NCBI GenBank assembly: GCA_902803685.1
Contig: CADCQR010000025.1
Span: forward strand, 1-19,101
Source of the DNA: an uncultured Erysipelotrichaceae bacterium
GTDB lineage: Bacteria; Bacillota_I; Bacilli_A; RF39; UBA660
Reading direction: 5' to 3'
Length of the DNA stretch: 19,101 bases
In this document: piece after piece, positions 3,138 through 16,634 of the stretch
Position numbering within the stretch: position 1 is the stretch's first letter
How the letters are laid out: each line of letters begins with the position of its first letter
Notes under the pieces: model-generated
The model's database searches: none
Seen by the model: only the letters and a program-made list of their open reading frames with translations
What the model was told of the DNA's origin: nothing
Program-made: the position numbers and the translations under genes

Positions 3138-4445
3138 ATGAAGTATTATTGTATTGGAATAAAAGGTGCAGGGATGTCTACGCTTGCTCAAATATTATAT
3201 GACCTTGGTAATACTGTGGTTGGGTACGACGATGCCAAAGGGCACAAATTTACCCAAGAAGGTTTAGAGCAAAGAAATATCCCTATCTATTATGATCAAT
3301 CATATAACTTTGATAAAGATACTATCGCTACTTATAGTGTAGCATTTTCTCAAGACCATCCAGAGATTAAAAGAGTCAAAGAAGCTGGAATTACCATAAA
3401 AAAGTATAATGAAATTATTGGTGATATAATCGATAGATTTAAGAGCATTGGTGTAGCTGGAGCACATGGAAAAACATCAACATCTGCAATGATTAAACAT
3501 ATTCTAGAAAAGACAGTGGGTTGTAATTATTTTATTGGTGCTGGTGATGGCAATGTTTCGAACGATAGTGATTATTTTGTAGTAGAATCTGACGAGTTCA
3601 ACAGGCATTTTACAGCTTATCATCCTAAATATTCTATAATTACTAATATTGAAGAAGAACACATGGAAATATATAAAGATATTAATGATATTATTAATAC
3701 TTTTGAAATTTTTGCTAATCAAACAGAAGAATTGATTATTGCTAATGGAGACAATGAAAATATAAGAAAGATTAATTTCAAAACTCCAGTTTACTTCTTT
3801 GGGTTTAACGATAATAATGACATAGTAATTAAAAATGTTACATTATTAGAGACGGGTTCAAAGTTTGATTTATATTTTAAAGGAGATTTGGTCGATAGTT
3901 TTGAAATACCTTTATTTGGTCAGCATATGGTTATGAATGCAGCTGCTGCTATTATGATGTGTAAATATATAGGTATTAGCGTTTCAGATATAAAAGATGC
4001 TATGCAGACGTTTCAAAATGCAAAAAGAAGATTTGCTATTAGTATAGTAAATAATAGTATTATTGTGGATGACTATGCCCATCATCCTACAGAAATAAAA
4101 GTCACTTTGCTTGGAGTAAAACAGAAGTATCCTAATAAAAGATTAGTAGTAGTTTTTGTTCCAAACACTTATTCTAGAACCAAAGACTTTACGGATGAAT
4201 TTGTCGATGCCTTAAGCATTGCTGATAAGACATATTTAACGGAAATAGATTGTAATAGGGAAGATCCAAGAGATTATCCTGGAATTACTTCTAGGACTAT
4301 AACCGATAGAATTCCTGGTGCTGAGATTATATCTATTCCAACTATTGATATGTTAAAAGACGAAAAAGATTCGGTAGTTTGTTTCATGGGATGTGCCTAT
4401 GTTGATGGTATTTTAAATGCATATAAGGATTTTTTAAAAAAATAG
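3138..4445 (+). CDS. murC: UDP-N-acetylmuramate--L-alanine ligase MurC
   Basis: MurC adds L-alanine to UDP-N-acetylmuramic acid using ATP in the cytoplasm, the first peptide step of peptidoglycan precursor synthesis. The 435-residue product is of normal length for the family. It has the N-terminal UDP-binding loop GIKGAGMSTLA (residues 7-17), the Mur-ligase ATP loop GVAGAHGKTST (105-115), NIEEEHME in the central domain, and a C-terminal domain with the DDYAHHPTEI motif typical of MurC. The ribosome site AGGAAGGTG precedes the ATG. The gene is monocistronic, with its own promoter (3087-3115) and terminator (4436-4467), and lies apart from other mur genes. Its presence shows a walled cell and argues against a Mollicute. 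Confidence 0.95.
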   Translation: MKYYCIGIKGAGMSTLAQILYDLGNTVVGYDDAKGHKFTQEGLEQRNIPIYYDQSYNFDKDTIATYSVAFSQDHPEIKRVKEAGITIKKYNEIIGDIIDRFKSIGVAGAHGKTSTSAMIKHILEKTVGCNYFIGAGDGNVSNDSDYFVVESDEFNRHFTAYHPKYSIITNIEEEHMEIYKDINDIINTFEIFANQTEELIIANGDNENIRKINFKTPVYFFGFNDNNDIVIKNVTLLETGSKFDLYFKGDLVDSFEIPLFGQHMVMNAAAAIMMCKYIGISVSDIKDAMQTFQNAKRRFAISIVNNSIIVDDYAHHPTEIKVTLLGVKQKYPNKRLVVVFVPNTYSRTKDFTDEFVDALSIADKTYLTEIDCNREDPRDYPGITSRTITDRIPGAEIISIPTIDMLKDEKDSVVCFMGCAYVDGILNAYKDFLKK

Positions 4446-4467
4446 TTGCAAAAAAACTATTTTTTTT
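4436..4467 (+). terminator. Terminator after murC
   Basis: The arms AAAAAAATAGTT (4436-4447) and AACTATTTTTTT (4455-4466) pair around a 7-base loop and run into a T tract. The left arm begins inside the last murC codons. Confidence 0.8.
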
Positions 4468-4486
4468 GTACAATTATGATGTATAT

Positions 4487-4563
4487 GGCCTGTTGGTGAA
4501 GAGGCTTAACACATTACCCTCTCAAGGTAACATTCACGGATTCGAATTCCGTACAGGCTACCA
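4487..4563 (+). tRNA. tRNA-Glu (anticodon CUC)
   Basis: A complete cloverleaf can be drawn. The acceptor arms GGCCTGT and ACAGGCT pair, with G-U at the first position. The anticodon stem TTACC/GGTAA (4514-4518 and 4526-4530) holds the 7-base loop CTCTCAA. The T arm is ACGGA-TTCGAAT-TCCGT, and CCA is encoded at 4561-4563. The anticodon at 4521-4523 is CTC, which reads GAG glutamate codons. The 5' half resembles bacterial tRNA-Glu genes. It stands alone between the murC terminator and its own terminator, with a -10-like TATGAT at 4475-4480. Confidence 0.93.
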
Positions 4564-4574
4564 TAATGTTAATT

Positions 4575-4598
4575 ACCCTTACTTAAGGGTTTTCTTTT
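4575..4598 (+). terminator. Terminator after tRNA-Glu
   Basis: ACCCTT (4575-4580) pairs with AAGGGT (4585-4590) around a 4-base loop, followed by TTTCTTTT. Confidence 0.75.
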
Positions 4599-4607
4599 GC
4601 TTAAATT

Positions 4608-4637
4608 TTGATATATATTTAATATCTATCATATAAT
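4608..4637 (+). promoter_or_regulatory. Promoter of the small three-TM protein gene
   Basis: TTGATA (4608-4613) and TATAAT (4632-4637) are separated by 18 bases, just downstream of the tRNA terminator and 45 bases before the chosen start codon. Confidence 0.6.
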
Positions 4638-4682
4638 CTATTAGGACTAAATCATATATGTACTATGATTTACAGGGATGAT

Positions 4683-5048
4683 ATGACAGGAAATTTAAAT
4701 AAAGATATTGAACAGTTAAATTTTGAAGATTTTCTATTTTTAGTCTTTGCTTTTGTATCATTTATGAATATTAGTGGTAATTCTTTGATTAAAGAATATA
4801 TTAATAAGAAAGATAATTACTATATGGATTCTGCTAATAAAATATTTGAATTTACTTTAAATGTGACTCTTATTATATATATTTATTTTTTAATAAGAAA
4901 TTATAACTCTTATGTTAGTGTTAGTGAAGAAAAAAGAACTTTGTATTTGACAAAACTATTAGGAAGCTGTTTCTTAATAACAGGTGTTCTATTATTATTG
5001 TATTTTCAAACAAATCAAAAAAGTTTTGTTGGTTCACCGGCAGTTTAG
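4683..5048 (+). CDS. Small three-transmembrane protein, unknown function
   Basis: The 121-residue product from ATG 4683 is preceded by AGGGATGAT. An in-frame ATG at 4665 would add six residues but has no ribosome site. Three hydrophobic segments stand out: about residues 15-33 (FLFLVFAFVSFMNI), 54-72 (LNVTLIIYIYFLI) and 91-109 (LLGSCFLITGVLLLLYF). Short polar loops separate them, and the N-terminus MTGNLNKDIEQ is polar. I recognise no catalytic motif or named family. The gene has its own promoter at 4608-4637. It ends 76 bases before thymidine kinase, with only a weak hairpin between them, so read-through is possible. Confidence 0.7.
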   Translation: MTGNLNKDIEQLNFEDFLFLVFAFVSFMNISGNSLIKEYINKKDNYYMDSANKIFEFTLNVTLIIYIYFLIRNYNSYVSVSEEKRTLYLTKLLGSCFLITGVLLLLYFQTNQKSFVGSPAV

Positions 5049-5052
5049 GTTT

Positions 5053-5071
5053 ACATTGATTAATGTTTTTT
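5053..5071 (+). terminator. Weak possible terminator before thymidine kinase
   Basis: ACATT (5053-5057) pairs with AATGT (5062-5066) around a 4-base loop, followed by a short T run. The five A/T-rich pairs make this weak, so partial read-through into the kinase gene is likely. Confidence 0.35.
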
Positions 5072-5124
5072 ATTGCCTTTTTAATATTTGTTTGCTAGTC
5101 TTTAATATGAGGTAGGAGGTAATT

Positions 5125-5730
5125 ATGGGAAGTTTAAAGTTTGTTTATGGAGCAATGGGATGTGGTAAGAGCATTGATTTGCTTATGAGTGTATTTAAAA
5201 AAGAGGATAAAGGGAAAAAAGTTATTGTTACTAAGCCGAGTACAGATACAAAGGCTGGTAATAAAATACAATCTCGTCTGGGAAATTTAGAAAGAACTGT
5301 CGATTTACTGATCACCCCTGATGGCTCTTATAAAGATCACTGGCGCGAATGGATTGAAGACGGTGTTGAATATATTTTTGTTGATGAGTCACAGTTGCTT
5401 ACTGCAGAACAAGTACAAGAATTGCGCGATACCGCTAATTTCATGGATGTTGATGTTATCTGTTACGGATTAAAGACCAACTTTCGTGGAGAACTTTTTG
5501 AAGCTAGTAAAAAATTAGTTGAGGTTTCTGATTGCATGGAGGAACTATCATCAGTGTTATGTGAATGTGGGGATAATAAAGCTATATTTAATGCCAGATT
5601 TGTTAATGGAATATTTGCAACAGTTGGAGATGATATATTTATTGATGGCAGTGACGCTTCTGTTGAATATAGAGCTTTATGCCCAAAGTGTTTTAGCTTA
5701 TATCTAAAAGGTAAAAAAAATCGTGGGTAA
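5125..5730 (+). CDS. tdk: Thymidine kinase
   Basis: Type II thymidine kinase phosphorylates thymidine to dTMP with ATP, in nucleotide salvage. The 201-residue product has the P-loop GAMGCGKS (residues 9-16), the metal-binding FVDESQLL (85-92), YGLKTNFRGELFE (114-126) and a zinc site made of Cys146-x-Cys148 and CPKC (Cys186, Cys189). The length is normal. The P-loop differs from the commoner GPMFSGKS or GAMNSGKT forms but keeps the essential GKS. The start follows TAGGAGGT. The small acetyltransferase gene overlaps its end by 8 bases, so the two are translationally linked. With DeoB at the right end of the window, it fits active deoxynucleoside salvage. Confidence 0.93.
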   Translation: MGSLKFVYGAMGCGKSIDLLMSVFKKEDKGKKVIVTKPSTDTKAGNKIQSRLGNLERTVDLLITPDGSYKDHWREWIEDGVEYIFVDESQLLTAEQVQELRDTANFMDVDVICYGLKTNFRGELFEASKKLVEVSDCMEELSSVLCECGDNKAIFNARFVNGIFATVGDDIFIDGSDASVEYRALCPKCFSLYLKGKKNRG

Positions 5731-5980
5731 TGAGTTAAAGATTGCTGACAATATGATATATATAGAAGAGGGTTCTAATATTTTAGCAATGGTTGAATTT
5801 AAAAAAATCAGCCCAACTGAATATGATATATATCACACTTTTGTTGATGAAAAATTAAGAGGGCAGGGTATTGCTTCAACATTAGTCGGTAAAGCTGTAA
5901 AAGAAATAAGTTCTCGAGGATATAAAGTCCAAGCTTCATGTTCATATGCAAATGCTTGGTTAAAGAAAAGAAATATTTAG
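5723..5980 (+). CDS. Small GNAT-type N-acetyltransferase
   Basis: The 85-residue product resembles the short YjdJ-like GNAT proteins (PF14542-type). It has a beta strand region EYDIYHTFVDEKLRGQGIASTLV, in which RGQGIA is the acetyl-CoA pyrophosphate-binding loop (family RGxGIA), then KAVKEISSRGYKVQASCSYANAWL, ending in the family's typical short C-terminus. The substrate is unknown for most members. The GTG at 5723 overlaps the end of the thymidine kinase gene by 8 bases and has AAAGGT about 10 bases upstream; the ATG at 5753 lacks any site. It is probably expressed from the kinase transcript. Confidence 0.8.
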   Translation: MGNELKIADNMIYIEEGSNILAMVEFKKISPTEYDIYHTFVDEKLRGQGIASTLVGKAVKEISSRGYKVQASCSYANAWLKKRNI

Positions 5981-5992
5981 TGTCATATTAAT

Positions 5993-6022
5993 TTGACAAT
6001 TTTTAAATTTTAATGTTATTAT
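5993..6022 (+). promoter_or_regulatory. Promoter of the leu leader and leuA
   Basis: A perfect -35 TTGACA (5993-5998) and TATTAT (6017-6022) are separated by 18 bases, so transcription should start near 6029. A short inverted repeat TGTCA (5981-5985) and TGACA (5994-5998) overlaps the -35 box and might be an operator. Confidence 0.7.
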
Positions 6023-6047
6023 TTTATTAACTTAAGAGGAGGCTAAT

Positions 6048-6110
6048 ATGTTTAATCTTTGTATAAACAATTTATTTTTAGCTATGTTACTCTTATCTCT
6101 ATTATTATAA
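6048..6110 (+). CDS. leuL: Leucine-rich leader peptide of leuA
   Basis: This 20-residue ORF starts at ATG 6048 with AGGAGG at 6037-6042, five bases upstream. Nine of its 20 residues are leucine, concentrated at the end: LLLSLLL just before the TAA at 6108-6110. Leucine is encoded mainly by TTA, with CTC, CTA and CTT also used. It lies between a strong promoter and alternative hairpins ahead of the 2-isopropylmalate synthase gene, the first enzyme of leucine synthesis. This matches leader peptides of ribosome-mediated attenuators. When charged tRNA-Leu is scarce the ribosome should pause in the leucine run; otherwise it reaches the stop and covers the next RNA segment. The peptide itself probably has no other role. 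Confidence 0.85.
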   Translation: MFNLCINNLFLAMLLLSLLL

Positions 6111-6112
6111 TT

Positions 6113-6206
6113 TAATATAGAGATTTTATTGTTGCATTAAACTTTTAAGTGGAATAGAAGAATATAAGAATCTCTATATTATGTAGGTTCTCTTATATTC
6201 TTTTTT
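6113..6206 (+). promoter_or_regulatory. Leucine attenuator: antiterminator and terminator hairpins
   Basis: Two competing pairings can be drawn. TAATATAGAGATT (6113-6125) pairs perfectly over 13 bp with AATCTCTATATTA (6169-6181). AAGAATATAAGA (6158-6169) pairs over 12 bp with TCTTATATTCTT (6191-6202), followed by T's to 6206, which makes an intrinsic terminator. The two helices interleave and share base 6169, so they should exclude each other. A ribosome at the leader stop (6108-6110) would cover most of 6113-6125 and favour the terminator. A ribosome stalled earlier would leave that segment free for the antiterminator. The attenuated RNA would be about 180 bases long. Confidence 0.8.
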
Positions 6207-6222
6207 ATATATTGGAGGAAAT

Positions 6223-7863
6223 ATGAAAAATTATAATAAGTACAAAAAACTTTATGATTGGAAAAAGCCCAAAAATAGGTCTTGGGTTGATAATGAAATT
6301 GTTGAGGCACCAATCTGGTGTAGTGTTGATTTAAGAGATGGTAATCAGGCTTTGCCAGATCCCATGACATTAGAAGAAAAAGTGGAATTTTTTGATTATT
6401 TAATTAAGCTTGGATTTAAGGAAATAGAAATTGGCTTTCCAGCAGCTAGTGATACTGAATTTAAATTTACTCGATATTTAATAGAAAATAATAAGATTCC
6501 TGATGATGTCACAATTCAAGTATTAACACAAGCTCGCGACGAAATAATTGATAAAACATTTGAGTCGCTAATAGGGGTTAAGAATGCTATCGTACATTTA
6601 TATAATTCTACATCAAAAATACAAAGAGATATTGTGTTTGCTAAAAACAAAAGTGAAGTGGAAAATATTGCTGTTTATGGTGCCAAATTGATGTCTGAGT
6701 ATGTAAAAAAATATCCTAATACTAATTGGCGTTTTGAGTATTCCCCTGAATCGTTTAGTACTACAGAAGTTGATTATGCTGTAAAAGTTATAAATAGTGT
6801 TTTAAAAGTATGGCATGGAAAGACAAAGTCAAAACCAATAATTAACTTACCAGCAACAATTGAATGTGCTATGCCTAATGTATTTGCTGATCAAGTAGAA
6901 TATGTGTGTGAGCATATTTATGACCGTCAAAATGTCATTGTTAGTGTACACGCTCATAATGATAGAGGAACTGGTGTAGCAACTAGTGAGATGAGCCTTT
7001 TAGCTGGCGCTGATAGAATAGAGGGGGCATTATTTGGAAACGGCGAGAGAACTGGTAATGCTGATATAATGAACATTGCAATGAATATGTATGTATTAGG
7101 TGTTGATCCAAAATTAGATTTTAGTAACATTGTTCAAACAAAAAATGTATATGAAAAATGTACAAAGATGAAAGTAGGACCACGTCATCCTTATGCAGGA
7201 GAACTTGTATTTACAGCTTTTTCGGGTTCACATCAAGATGCCATATCTAAAGGGTTAAAGCATATTTCTACTAATAAAAAAAGATATTGGGAAGTACCAT
7301 ATCTTCCTATTAATCCCGCTGATGTTAATAGACAATATGAACCTATTATAAGAATTAATAGTCAGTCCGGTAAGGGTGGTGTTGCATATATATTAAGGGA
7401 AAAATTCGGATATGATATTCCTAAAATAATGCAAAAAGATGTAGGCAAATTTATCAAAGTTGTGTCTGATGAGGTTAAGAAAGAATTAAATAATGATGAC
7501 TTATTTACAGAATTCATTAAAAATTATGAAAATAGGTCTGATACATTAGAATTAATAGATTGTTCTTTTGAGACAAGCAAACATGATATGACATTGAAAA
7601 TAAAAATAAATGATACTAATGGTATCAAAGAAATTAGTAAGAATGGTACTCAAATAACTGATATTATATTAAGCAGTTTAAATGAGCTTGGTTACTCTAT
7701 AGAGCTAGAAAATTACAGTGAGCAAATTGGCAATCAATATACAATTACATATGTAAATATTAGTTATGAAAAAAAGAGTATTTGGGCTATAGGAAAGGGT
7801 AAGACTTCAGAAAAATCACTATTATTAGCGGTTATTAGTGCTATAAACAAAGCAATTAATTAG
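6223..7863 (+). CDS. leuA: 2-Isopropylmalate synthase, type II (LeuA)
   Basis: LeuA condenses acetyl-CoA with 2-oxoisovalerate, the committed step of leucine synthesis. The 546-residue product belongs to the longer LeuA2 type known from Actinobacteria and yeast. It starts with a KKP...W--NEI block, then APIWCSVDLRDGNQAL (metal ligand Asp39), IEIGFPAAS, the metal-binding VHAHND (His243, His245), and GNGERTGNADI. The C-terminal part from about residue 440 is the regulatory domain that usually binds leucine for feedback inhibition. The catalytic residues seen are intact. GGAGG lies just before the ATG. No leuB, leuC or leuD lies in the window, so this is an isolated pathway gene with its own attenuator (6048-6206). 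Confidence 0.93.
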   Translation: MKNYNKYKKLYDWKKPKNRSWVDNEIVEAPIWCSVDLRDGNQALPDPMTLEEKVEFFDYLIKLGFKEIEIGFPAASDTEFKFTRYLIENNKIPDDVTIQVLTQARDEIIDKTFESLIGVKNAIVHLYNSTSKIQRDIVFAKNKSEVENIAVYGAKLMSEYVKKYPNTNWRFEYSPESFSTTEVDYAVKVINSVLKVWHGKTKSKPIINLPATIECAMPNVFADQVEYVCEHIYDRQNVIVSVHAHNDRGTGVATSEMSLLAGADRIEGALFGNGERTGNADIMNIAMNMYVLGVDPKLDFSNIVQTKNVYEKCTKMKVGPRHPYAGELVFTAFSGSHQDAISKGLKHISTNKKRYWEVPYLPINPADVNRQYEPIIRINSQSGKGGVAYILREKFGYDIPKIMQKDVGKFIKVVSDEVKKELNNDDLFTEFIKNYENRSDTLELIDCSFETSKHDMTLKIKINDTNGIKEISKNGTQITDIILSSLNELGYSIELENYSEQIGNQYTITYVNISYEKKSIWAIGKGKTSEKSLLLAVISAINKAIN

Positions 7864-7910
7864 AGTCGCATCATATTATTCTCATAAATGATTATTAATG
7901 TAATTATTTG

Positions 7911-7919
7911 TGATATAAT
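7911..7919 (+). promoter_or_regulatory. Extended -10 promoter of the Na/Pi cotransporter operon
   Basis: TGATATAAT is an extended -10 (TGnTATAAT) 22 bases before the start at 7942. No clear -35 hexamer is seen at the right distance, which extended -10 promoters tolerate. No terminator is visible between leuA and this gene. Confidence 0.5.
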
Positions 7920-7941
7920 AATTGTGTTAATGAGGTGTTTT

Positions 7942-9741
7942 ATGGGACTGGTAATATCTATACTTAAGCTATTGGGAGGCCTGGTTTTACTAATTTATGG
8001 TATGACAATATTAAGTGATAATTTAAAAAAACTTTCTGGTGGCAAATTAGAGAAGGTTTTGATGAATGTTACTAATAATGTATTTAAAGGATTAGTTGTT
8101 GGATTTTTGTTGACTGTTGTAACACACAGTTCAGCAGCTACTACTGTTATAGTGGTTGGGCTTGTTGGTTCGGATATTTTGAAATTAAAAAACGCAATAC
8201 CTATTATTATGGGTGCAAACATTGGTACTACTATGAATTCACAGATTTTGCGATTAGCTGGTATAAGTGGAGACAGTTGGGTTAGTCTTTTTACTCCAGA
8301 ATGTTTTGCTCCCATTTTATTGGTAGTGGGCTTGATTATTATGAATAATGCTAAAAAGCAAAAAATAAAAGACATAGGCAGTCTTTTTATGGGGTTAGGA
8401 TTATTATTCACTGGTATGATGTTAATGATGAATGTTGCATCTTCATTCAGCAACTTACCTATTTTAGCCACTATTTTGAAAAAACTATCTAATCCCATAT
8501 TAGGCGTATTAGCAGGAGCTATTGTAACAGCTATAGTGCAGAGTTCTTCAGCAACGATAGGTATCCTTCAAGCTTTATCTACAACTGGCAAAATAACGTA
8601 TGCAACTACAATTCCTGTTATATTAGGGCAAAATATAGGTACTTGTGTTACTTCCATTTTAGCATCTATTGGTAGTAATACTAATTCTAAAAGAGTAGCA
8701 GCTGTACATTTATACTTTAATTTAATTGGTACTATTATTTTTTTAATGGCAATTTATTCATATCAATATTTTGTGGGCTTTGCCTTTTGGAATAGTACTG
8801 TTGACATGGGAAGAATAGCAGATTTCCATACCATTTTTAATGTTTGCTCTACAATTATTTTGTTACCGTTTTTAAATCAACTGGAAAAGTTAACTATTAT
8901 TACAGTAAAAGAATCCAAAGATACAGATGATGATTCTGATGCTGAACATTTAATTATTTTGAATAAATTAGATAAAAGATTTATAAATATGCCTAGTATT
9001 GCTATATCAAATAGTGTTGATGTTATATCAAGAATGCTGGGAATTGCTAATAAAAATTTCATTAGAAGTATAGAATTAATAAAGAAGTTTAATTTGAAAA
9101 AATTACAAAAAGTTGAATCCCGAGAGAACAACATAGATGAGATTGAAAAAAATATAGCAAGATATTTGGCTAGCTTAAAAAGTATAGCATTAACTAAAAA
9201 TGATAATAAAAAAGTAACCGCTCTCTTTAGTATTGAATCTGAATTTGAAAAGATTGGAGATTATGCTTATAGGTTAGGAAAGACAGCAGAGAGAATTAAT
9301 GAAAACGATATAAAGTTTTCTTCTTCAGCCCAAGAAGAAATGAATGTCATGTTTGGTATAACAGAGGAGGGAATAAACACGTGTATGAATTTATTTACTT
9401 CTCTAGATTTAAGTTTGATTATAGAAATTGAAGCAATTAGAGAATTTATAGATTGTAAAAATGAGGAGTTTAAGGAAATACATATCCAAAGATTAAAAAA
9501 TGGTAAATGTAATGTTGAAAGCGGTATTACTTTTTTAGAAATTTTGAATATTTGTGTTAGTATTTTAAATCATTGTTTCAATGCTGCTATTGGGATATAT
9601 AATTATTCTTTCGAAGGAAAATTTGCTACTAAACATGATTATAGGCAAAAGATGTATAGTAAAAGTACTAAACAAATTAAGAATAAAATCAATGAGTTGG
9701 CCTCTAAATATAGTATCAATATCGAAGGCAAAGAAGAATAA
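7942..9741 (+). CDS. Na+/phosphate cotransporter (NptA/Na-Pi-II family) with PhoU-like tail
   Basis: The 599-residue membrane protein has the two inverted Na/Pi-cotransporter repeats. The first carries THSSAATTVIVVGLV (61-75) and GANIGTT (91-97), and the second carries QSSSATIGIL (200-209) and GQNIGT (229-234). These serine-rich motifs form the ion and phosphate path. The membrane part ends near residue 330. The rest (about 365-599) is cytoplasmic and helical, with the PhoU-like ESEFEKIGDYAYRLGKTAE motif, as in many bacterial relatives. It should take up or balance phosphate with sodium. The ATG at 7942 follows GAGGTG; earlier in-frame starts lack a site. Two unknown genes follow at 16 and 14 bases, so the three probably form one operon. 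Confidence 0.87.
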   Translation: MGLVISILKLLGGLVLLIYGMTILSDNLKKLSGGKLEKVLMNVTNNVFKGLVVGFLLTVVTHSSAATTVIVVGLVGSDILKLKNAIPIIMGANIGTTMNSQILRLAGISGDSWVSLFTPECFAPILLVVGLIIMNNAKKQKIKDIGSLFMGLGLLFTGMMLMMNVASSFSNLPILATILKKLSNPILGVLAGAIVTAIVQSSSATIGILQALSTTGKITYATTIPVILGQNIGTCVTSILASIGSNTNSKRVAAVHLYFNLIGTIIFLMAIYSYQYFVGFAFWNSTVDMGRIADFHTIFNVCSTIILLPFLNQLEKLTIITVKESKDTDDDSDAEHLIILNKLDKRFINMPSIAISNSVDVISRMLGIANKNFIRSIELIKKFNLKKLQKVESRENNIDEIEKNIARYLASLKSIALTKNDNKKVTALFSIESEFEKIGDYAYRLGKTAERINENDIKFSSSAQEEMNVMFGITEEGINTCMNLFTSLDLSLIIEIEAIREFIDCKNEEFKEIHIQRLKNGKCNVESGITFLEILNICVSILNHCFNAAIGIYNYSFEGKFATKHDYRQKMYSKSTKQIKNKINELASKYSINIEGKEE

Positions 9742-11246: not shown

Positions 11247-12518
11247 ATGAAGAATTTTAAGAAGTACTTAAAAAAAGCTATGGAATTGATTAGTACAAAA
11301 CGATTTTATATCCTATTTTTTTGTTTACAATTTATTCTTTTAATATTGATGAAAAATACTCTTTTTGATTTATATTATACAGGACTCAAAAATAAAGGAT
11401 TTAATAATATATATATAAATGAGATATCAGTTGATACATATGGACAATACAAATTGCTAATGTCGAGAAGCAACTTCAACTATTTTAATGAATGCTATGA
11501 ATTGAATGAGAAGAAACAGGTTTATGAATTACAAGAATATGATGAAGTAGAGCTTGGAAAACTAATGAAAAGAGTATTACCATTCCATTATTTGCTTTAC
11601 AAAGAGGAACTAGCTAAGAACAATTTTAAGTCTGAAGCTATTTTAGGAATGCAGGACTATACTACAGTTTATAAAAAATTAGAATCATTAAGTGAAGATC
11701 AACGTACTTTCACTTTACTTCGTTCTAAGAAAGAATTAAAAAAGTATAATGATAAAGAACTAAATGAGCTAATATATAAAGAAATCCAATTAGAATATAA
11801 TAAAATTGGGCATAAAATTAATAATATTCAAATGAAATATATTAAACTAAATTTTGCCAAAATCACTATCTATGTTGCTTTATTCTTAATATTAGGATTA
11901 TTAATGAAAATAATTAGAAAAGGTAATTATGTGATTATTCAAAAATCTGATTATATAACAAATTGGACATTATTAATGATTAGTTTACTTCTTTTATATA
12001 CAATCTATAGCAAATATACTACGATTATATGTGGCATTTATTTGTTTGCTTTTTCCTTGATATCAATTTTGAAGATTATTAGAAAGAATAGTAAAACTAA
12101 CAATACTTTTCTAGAAAAAAAATTGAATTTCAAATTATTTTTGGAAAGGATTTATAATTTTAAAGCGTTTTATTTAATACTACTTTATTTCATTATCAAT
12201 ATAATTATTTATATTAGGTATAAAGGTAATTATATTTTTACTGAACTAACCGAAGAAACAGTGTATTCTAATATTATTTATTTCTCTACACTTATTTATA
12301 GTATTTTTTTAGTTCTTAGCATCATTATATTAGAAAATATTTACAAAAAAGAAATTGTTAATAATAATTTGCAAATTGATAATGAATTAATAACTGAAAA
12401 TAATGAAATTACAGAAAACGTTATGGGTTCTGTTGAAAAGAAAAAGAAGAAGAAGAAGAAAAAGAAAAATGTAGTTAGAAAGAAGAAATTAGTAAAAAAG
12501 AAAAAGAAAAAAAAGTAG
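11247..12518 (+). CDS. Polytopic membrane protein with polylysine C-terminal tail
   Basis: The 423-residue product has a basic N-terminus, a first transmembrane helix at about 21-38, and a large polar domain at 39-204. Five further hydrophobic helices follow at about 205-222, 239-254, 258-277, 306-323 and 343-362. By the positive-inside rule the polar domain is probably outside and the tail inside. The last 27 residues (397-423) contain 20 lysines, in blocks of 10, 3 and 7 separated by NVVR and LV. They are encoded by a mix of AAA and AAG codons. I recognise no family or catalytic motif. The ribosome site is weak (GGTG six bases before the ATG). An in-frame TAA directly precedes the ATG, which fixes the upstream limit. 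Confidence 0.8.
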   Translation: MKNFKKYLKKAMELISTKRFYILFFCLQFILLILMKNTLFDLYYTGLKNKGFNNIYINEISVDTYGQYKLLMSRSNFNYFNECYELNEKKQVYELQEYDEVELGKLMKRVLPFHYLLYKEELAKNNFKSEAILGMQDYTTVYKKLESLSEDQRTFTLLRSKKELKKYNDKELNELIYKEIQLEYNKIGHKINNIQMKYIKLNFAKITIYVALFLILGLLMKIIRKGNYVIIQKSDYITNWTLLMISLLLLYTIYSKYTTIICGIYLFAFSLISILKIIRKNSKTNNTFLEKKLNFKLFLERIYNFKAFYLILLYFIINIIIYIRYKGNYIFTELTEETVYSNIIYFSTLIYSIFLVLSIIILENIYKKEIVNNNLQIDNELITENNEITENVMGSVEKKKKKKKKKKNVVRKKKLVKKKKKKK

Positions 12519-16590: not shown

Positions 16591-16600
16591 TTAGTATATG

Positions 16601-16627
16601 AAAACGTCTTAAAATATAAGACGTTTT
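16601..16627. terminator. Bidirectional terminator between convergent genes
   Basis: AAAACGTCTTA (16601-16611) pairs perfectly with TAAGACGTTTT (16617-16627) around AAATA, followed by TCTTTT. It ends both the DUF1540-like gene and the minus-strand xerD-deoB-NUDIX operon. Confidence 0.88.
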
Positions 16628-16634
16628 TCTTTTA

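Follow-up and report, generated by a model that had tools for sequence, protein, structure and literature searches.

The leuA gene of an uncultured Erysipelotrichaceae bacterium is very probably controlled by a classical ribosome-mediated transcription attenuator that would respond to leucine. The gene lies in the window, the 19,101-nucleotide stretch of contig CADCQR010000025.1 that was analysed. Computation provides the attenuator components, shows that they occur in five loci and predicts a switch in pairing; from these results we infer the transcription start, the termination and the leucine response. The mechanism is a textbook one. The unexpected part is the target gene: in relatives of the window, the switch appears to control the first enzyme of leucine synthesis as an orphan.

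Leader Region and Hairpins

The leader and the gene contain the following features.

5993-6022, + strand: promoter-like TTGACA-18-TATTAT (11/12 match; TG precedes the second hexamer)
6036-6042, + strand: leader Shine-Dalgarno sequence GAGGAGG, read from the sequence
6048-6110, + strand: leader peptide ORF, 20 aa with 9 Leu, stop TAA at 6108-6110; counterparts in L001, L002, L018 and L039
6090-6092, + strand: CTC Leu codon 15, candidate main control codon; rarest Leu codon in the window ORFs
6096-6102, + strand: arm 1 (TCTCTAT), partner of the arm 2 bases 6117-6123 in RNA folding
6113-6125, + strand: arm 2, 5' strand of the antiterminator, from a mechanical arm search; counterparts in five leaders
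6158-6169, + strand: terminator 5' arm, from the mechanical arm search
6169-6181, + strand: arm 3, 3' strand of the antiterminator and terminator apex, from the arm search and the pairing model
6191-6206, + strand: terminator 3' arm (6191-6202) and T-run (6201-6206), from the sequence and the arm search
6214-6218, + strand: leuA Shine-Dalgarno sequence, read from the sequence
6223-7863, + strand: leuA, 2-isopropylmalate synthase, 546 aa (PRK03739/NF002991 type, 738 bits)

The original prediction, made from the window sequence, described a strong promoter. The close match to both hexamers stands, and TTGAC is without variation across four aligned leaders, but a scan of 4400-8000 returned 23 promoter-like sites against 23.4 expected from shuffles. 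Because shuffled sequence contains equally many such sites, the one at 5993-6022 is by itself no proof of a promoter. The leader ORF encodes MFNLCINNLFLAMLLLSLLL, with the 20 residues and nine leucines that had been predicted. Given a leucine background of 8.1% in nine window ORFs, the probability of at least nine in 20 is 1.1e-5, uncorrected for picking the leader ORF. A ribosome-binding site of its own and a cluster of cognate codons give this short ORF the character of an attenuator leader.

The mechanical search also recovered the perfect 13-bp antiterminator (6113-6125/6169-6181; 13 nt, 100% paired) and the 12-bp terminator with a T-run (6158-6169/6191-6202; 12 nt, 100% paired) of the prediction. 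Arm 1 was missing from that description; it is present again in relatives, with an insertion in the L018 copy. When 5981-6222 was subjected to 2000 dinucleotide shuffles, a terminator-like hairpin arose in 119 and both hairpins together in one, and by the same criteria the antiterminator/terminator pair is the sole one on either strand of the window. Folding energy alone is modestly unusual (z-score -2.26; 6/200 shuffles fold equally well). The 12-nt terminator 5' arm has only 2 G/C in the window, and a consensus terminator scan missed this terminator.

Between leader and gene, antiterminator and intrinsic terminator are mutually exclusive by computed pairing, as judged from nested folding, which cannot reveal a pseudoknot of both hairpins. 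In the window pairing model, the antiterminator and the long terminator arm have base 6169 alone in common. The antiterminator occupies the apical part of the terminator, not its long arm, and the terminator fold pairs 7 of the 13 arm 3 bases, mostly at the apex.

Known RNA families were also considered. The window has no Rfam family match at gathering score, and 5980-6240 has none to any family at E<=10, T-box (RF00230) and amino-acid leader families included. On these absent matches, a T-box, a riboswitch or another known RNA family was rejected.

Predicted Switching

RNA polymerase would start a few bases past 6022, and a ribosome would translate the 20-codon leader. With ample leucyl-tRNA, the ribosome would get to the stop codon at 6108 and cover arm 2; arm 3 would then remain with the terminator, and transcription would stop at 6201-6206. 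When leucine is scarce, the ribosome would stall at Leu codons 14-18 and cover arm 1, freeing arm 2 to capture arm 3, and leuA would be transcribed.

Five transcripts were folded with the ribosome modelled as a mask of an assumed 14 nt from the A-site codon. At the time of arm 3 synthesis, with the A site on CTC, the mean probability of arm 2:arm 3 pairing is 0.98 in the window, 0.96 in L001, 0.97 in L002, 0.98 in L018 and 0.95 in L039; with the ribosome on the stop codon, the corresponding values are 0.08, 0, 0, 0.01 and 0. Under this assumed footprint, the ribosome masks arm 2 from the stop codon and arm 1 when stalled in all five loci. The predicted geometry, in which a ribosome at the stop codon would cover 6113-6125, agrees with the masking model. 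Without a ribosome and with arm 3 just made, the pairing probability is 0.00-0.02 in four loci and 0.95 in the window.

The finished leaders differ at equilibrium. The window holds the antiterminator (0.96-0.97 at codons 14-18), L039 reaches 0.84, L001 at most 0.48, and L002 never exceeds 0.12, with 0.0 for every stall from codon 10, while L018 forms none even with the ribosome stalled on its Leu codons. Because equilibrium disfavours the antiterminator in L001, L002 and L018, the switch there must be kinetic, a race between folding and the polymerase.

We propose that CTC codon 15 is the most leucine-sensitive stall site. A single CTC is present in every one of the five leaders, 6-9 codons ahead of the stop. 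In neighbouring ORFs, CTC makes up 1/263 Leu codons in the window, 2/220 in L001, 2/270 in L002, 2/65 in L018 and 2/304 in L039; in every locus but L018, whose sample is too small to tell, it is the least used Leu codon. Its share is 138/16177 in ORFs of the first 60 stretches of genome G002 (1.04 Mb). The tRNA-Leu genes seen in G002 are CAA, TAA and TAG; the missing GAG is weak evidence because the 75 stretches together yielded just 24 tRNAs, with none for Ala, Ile, Lys, Phe or Ser. The five leader copies are related, and retention of CTC therefore does not represent five independent events.

Recurrence in Relatives

A contig scan of genomes yielded seven leuA loci (L001-L007). The whole leader arrangement is found in L001 (71% LeuA identity) and L002 (62%) and is absent from L003-L007 (47-53%), where ~400 bases upstream of each leuA were read. 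Whole-genome searches added L017 (67%) and L018 (63%), L018 with the full arrangement; L017 has no leader within the 317 upstream bases present on its contig. Positions 1-300 of L017, upstream of the leuA-aminotransferase pair of genome G465, resemble by eye the end of a transposase-type gene. The prediction had made conservation of the leader and arms in close relatives its own test, and the layout precedes leuA in three of four genomes with LeuA above 60% identity (62-72%, two orders). This conservation supports a ribosome-mediated leucine attenuator.

The order promoter, leader, arm 1, stop, arm 2, arm 3, terminator is shared by L001, L002 and L018 before leuA and by L039, a fifth copy in genome G595 (L039 5779-6040; leader MSKATRKSNFILALLSLLLK). 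The L039 leader is not before leuA; it precedes two genes for which the only family match, to Pfam, is sub-threshold, and G595 has no LeuA at E<=1e-100, as searched among 287 genomes of G002's order. Separately, L039 carries a group II intron with a reverse transcriptase/maturase ORF at 88-1888.

The leader peptides of the relatives vary in sequence and remain rich in Leu or Leu/Ile, with five Ile and four Leu codons each in L002 and L018. Relative to the stop codon's end, arm 2 starts at -2 to +2 nt in 5/5 copies. Structures were compared on alignment A5, as arm 2 or arm 3 was wrongly placed in the MAFFT alignments A2, A3 (3' part) and A4. Five sequences being too few for formal covariation counting, pairing was judged by eye: terminator arms diverge in sequence between loci with their pairing preserved, and arm 2:arm 3 pairing is preserved in L002 through a double change and in L039 through a G-U pair.

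A covariance model, R1, was trained on four sequences of the hairpin between arm 1 and arm 2 (32 positions). It matched 18/274 genomes of G002's order at E<=0.05, and all 18 were read; a leader and arm 3 are present in G002, a training sequence, and G595 alone. The other 16 matches have no leader plus arm 3 and were judged chance. Within G001's family, R1 picked out 2/243 genomes at E<=0.01: the training sequence G001, and G312, which was rejected after reading its sequence. The training sequence G667 is absent from the R1 matches, reflecting either limited sensitivity or that G667 was not drawn.

Close LeuA proteins were found in few genomes: 1/288 in the order of G001 (E<=1e-100); 2/243 in its family (E<=1e-30), one of them a 32% match; 3/287 in the order of G002 (E<=1e-100); 1/36 in the family of G465; and 1/391 in the class of G002 (E<=1e-190). 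The protein collection gave 7993 LeuA matches at E<=1e-100, and no relative was found in the viral collection. DeoB was used to place the window. Its DeoB shares 72% identity with the G001 protein, full-length DeoB at 49-70% occurs in 7/14 other tested genomes of G001's order, and the best among 17 tested genomes of G002's order reaches 47%. The window therefore groups with G001's order, and the attenuator is common to two orders.

The LeuA Enzyme

The LeuA catalytic core aligns with the M. tuberculosis 2-isopropylmalate synthase (1sr9; 486 bits), and DLRDGNQAL, HxHNDRG and NGERTGN are retained in 5/5 aligned copies. The C-terminal LeuA_dimer domain is less uniform, scoring 21.4 in the window, 18.7 in L001 and 67.7 in L002 (Pfam cut-off 24.9). 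A GxGPxDA loop, which we take to be part of the leucine-binding site, is found in L002 and L017 and as GxGAxDA in L018; it is lost in the window and L001. Divergence of this leucine-feedback domain in the window (6223-7863) and L001 (2172-3797) suggests that allosteric control may have been lost. Because dN/dS between the five copies is about 0.08-0.23, with dS near saturation, leuA looks retained by selection.

Missing Pathway and Gene Neighbourhood

Ten relatives' genomes were searched for the remaining pathway: G001, G002, G465 and G667, which have leuA, G595, which has the leader alone, and five order mates of G001. All are metagenome assemblies whose completeness is not given. The families of LeuC (aconitase, PF00330), IlvD (PF00920) and LeuB (isocitrate/isopropylmalate dehydrogenase, PF00180) were each detected in 0/10 (controls, 14/14 each), and all three are undetected in each of the four leuA-bearing genomes, which are AT-rich and ~1.0-1.6 Mb, belong to two orders and are known here only from metagenome assemblies. 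A regulator of the complete pathway would be expected to share its genome with LeuB, LeuC and IlvD; because these are undetectable, the switch seems not to control a complete leucine pathway in the relatives. This counts against the attenuator reading, as LeuA without LeuB, LeuC and IlvD makes the leucine-feedback logic odd. Further points against it are the arm 2:arm 3 pairing of the window transcript when ribosome-free, the equilibrium results for L001, L002 and L018, the leaderless L017, the G/C-poor window terminator and the larger number of Ile than Leu codons in the L002 and L018 leaders. PMC6784871 characterises RF39 as a reduced, auxotrophic lineage.

A complete leucine operon beside the window leuA was rejected; it is not in the gene list. 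A Na/Pi symporter gene comes after leuA in the window, and leuA stands alone in L002. The gene after leuA in L001 (3799-4869) and L017 (1987-3054) encodes a branched-chain aminotransferase, in both cases of the ilvE_II type, with 80% mutual identity. The aminotransferase after the L018 leuA (3-677, cut by the contig end) is of the ilvE_I/PRK08320 type and only 26-29% identical to those of L001 and L017. Occupation of the same place by two distant subfamilies suggests that LeuA and the aminotransferase work together. The three aminotransferases detect one another across subfamilies at about 1e-13, and G002 (26 contigs) has no match to the three in-frame queries at E<=1e-3.

The target matters in that leuA is seemingly kept by selection, with the attenuator in three of four cases, while LeuB, LeuC and IlvD are undetectable. 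The options are an unknown route using 2-isopropylmalate, a pathway divided between organisms, or a regulated gene that has outlived its pathway. The divided pathway can be put more specifically, although in this form it is quite improbable: the leucine-demand switch would drive an orphan LeuA in leucine auxotrophs, and 2-isopropylmalate made and released under leucine shortage could be turned into leucine by neighbours with LeuBCD. The LeuA substrates would then be acetyl-CoA and 2-ketoisovalerate, the latter made from valine via the neighbouring aminotransferase or scavenged. Attenuation would control a shared inter-species pathway, not the cell's own synthesis, and leader, leuA and aminotransferase would form a small module common to distant reduced-genome lineages.

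Comparison with Known Systems

Like the window element, the enterobacterial leu attenuator uses alternative 1:2, 2:3 and 3:4 hairpins. Where the enterobacterial leu leader has several CUA codons, the window leader has a single CTC, and it has no Rfam match at E<=10. In place of the enterobacterial leu operon, leuA is here alone or with an aminotransferase gene, and its LeuA is of the PRK03739 type. Leader peptides with rare Leu codons are common to both systems; the S. typhimurium leu leader has three rare CUA Leu codons, and rare Leu codons matter there (cited in PMC1183508).

Although the attenuator itself is supported by the relatives, the prediction went too far in calling leader-peptide control unusual in a Firmicute background on the grounds that Firmicutes use T-box and CodY control. 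According to PMC5794164, S. aureus ilvD has a leucine-responsive attenuator with a 26-aa leader peptide, Ile and Leu codons and a terminator; lux reporter data support the leucine response, and Lactococcus and Streptococcus attenuators are predicted. Compared by description, the S. aureus system resembles the window in combining a Firmicute leader peptide with a terminator. It differs in controlling a complete ilv-leu operon beside CodY and in a proposed antiterminator that takes the poly-U tail and leaves the terminator stem intact, whereas the window uses 2:3 pairing.

The actinobacterial LEU element also places a leader peptide with a Leu run ahead of leuA. Unlike the window, it has a pseudoknot and Leu codons pairing to the leuA Shine-Dalgarno sequence, and a terminator is not among the parts described in the leucine section of PMC1262725. 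T-box leaders (RF00230) likewise control amino-acid genes in Firmicutes but have no match in the window leader. The search that gave no T-box in the window does detect one upstream of one among the five ~50%-identical leuA genes (L006; 129 bits, ending ~300 bases before leuA), and L004 has a T-box-like stretch by eye, below the Rfam threshold. Among the titles listed in the literature search, there was nothing on attenuators or leuA leaders in these lineages or on orphan leuA.

Alternative Explanations

The hairpins might be nothing but an ordinary intrinsic terminator for transcription coming from upstream, with the leader ORF present by chance and no regulation. Such a reading accommodates the 119/2000 shuffles with a terminator alone, promoter-like sites as frequent as in shuffles and the commonness of Leu codons in AT-rich DNA, but it is extremely unlikely given that both hairpins arise in just 1/2000 shuffles and that five loci in two orders share the leader, the arms and the placing of the stop codon. 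A different proposal concerns the leader's codons: CU-rich Leu codons may pair with the leader's own Shine-Dalgarno sequence and limit re-initiation, CTC being kept for pairing and not for slowness. In ribosome-free transcripts, the probability that CTC pairs with the leader Shine-Dalgarno region is 0.99 in the window, 1.0 in L001 and 0.94 in L018, as this proposal would expect, but 0.00 in L002 and 0.01 in L039, both of which retain CTC. We consider it improbable, and it could in any case accompany attenuation.

The element and leuA might also be a relic, inherited or acquired as a unit, that no longer answers a need for leucine since the rest of the pathway is gone. Selection on LeuA speaks against this (dN/dS about 0.08-0.23, dS near saturation; catalytic motifs intact), as do the retention of arm and terminator pairing despite sequence divergence and the presence beside leuA of branched-chain aminotransferases from two subfamilies. 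The points in its favour are the detection of LeuC, LeuB and IlvD in 0/10 genomes, the rarity of close LeuA (1/288, 3/287 and 1/391 genomes drawn), the leaderless L017, the L039 leader with no adjoining leuA and the diverged feedback domain of the window and L001. On balance a relic is very unlikely, and a functioning attenuator remains the preferred reading.

Other Features of the Window

Two further features were seen in the window. An ORF at 11247-12518, in A-rich DNA, encodes a protein that ends in long lysine runs. Between convergent genes, hairpins with T-runs both ways at 16593-16631 (11 bp on the + strand, 15 bp on the - strand) are likely a two-way terminator.
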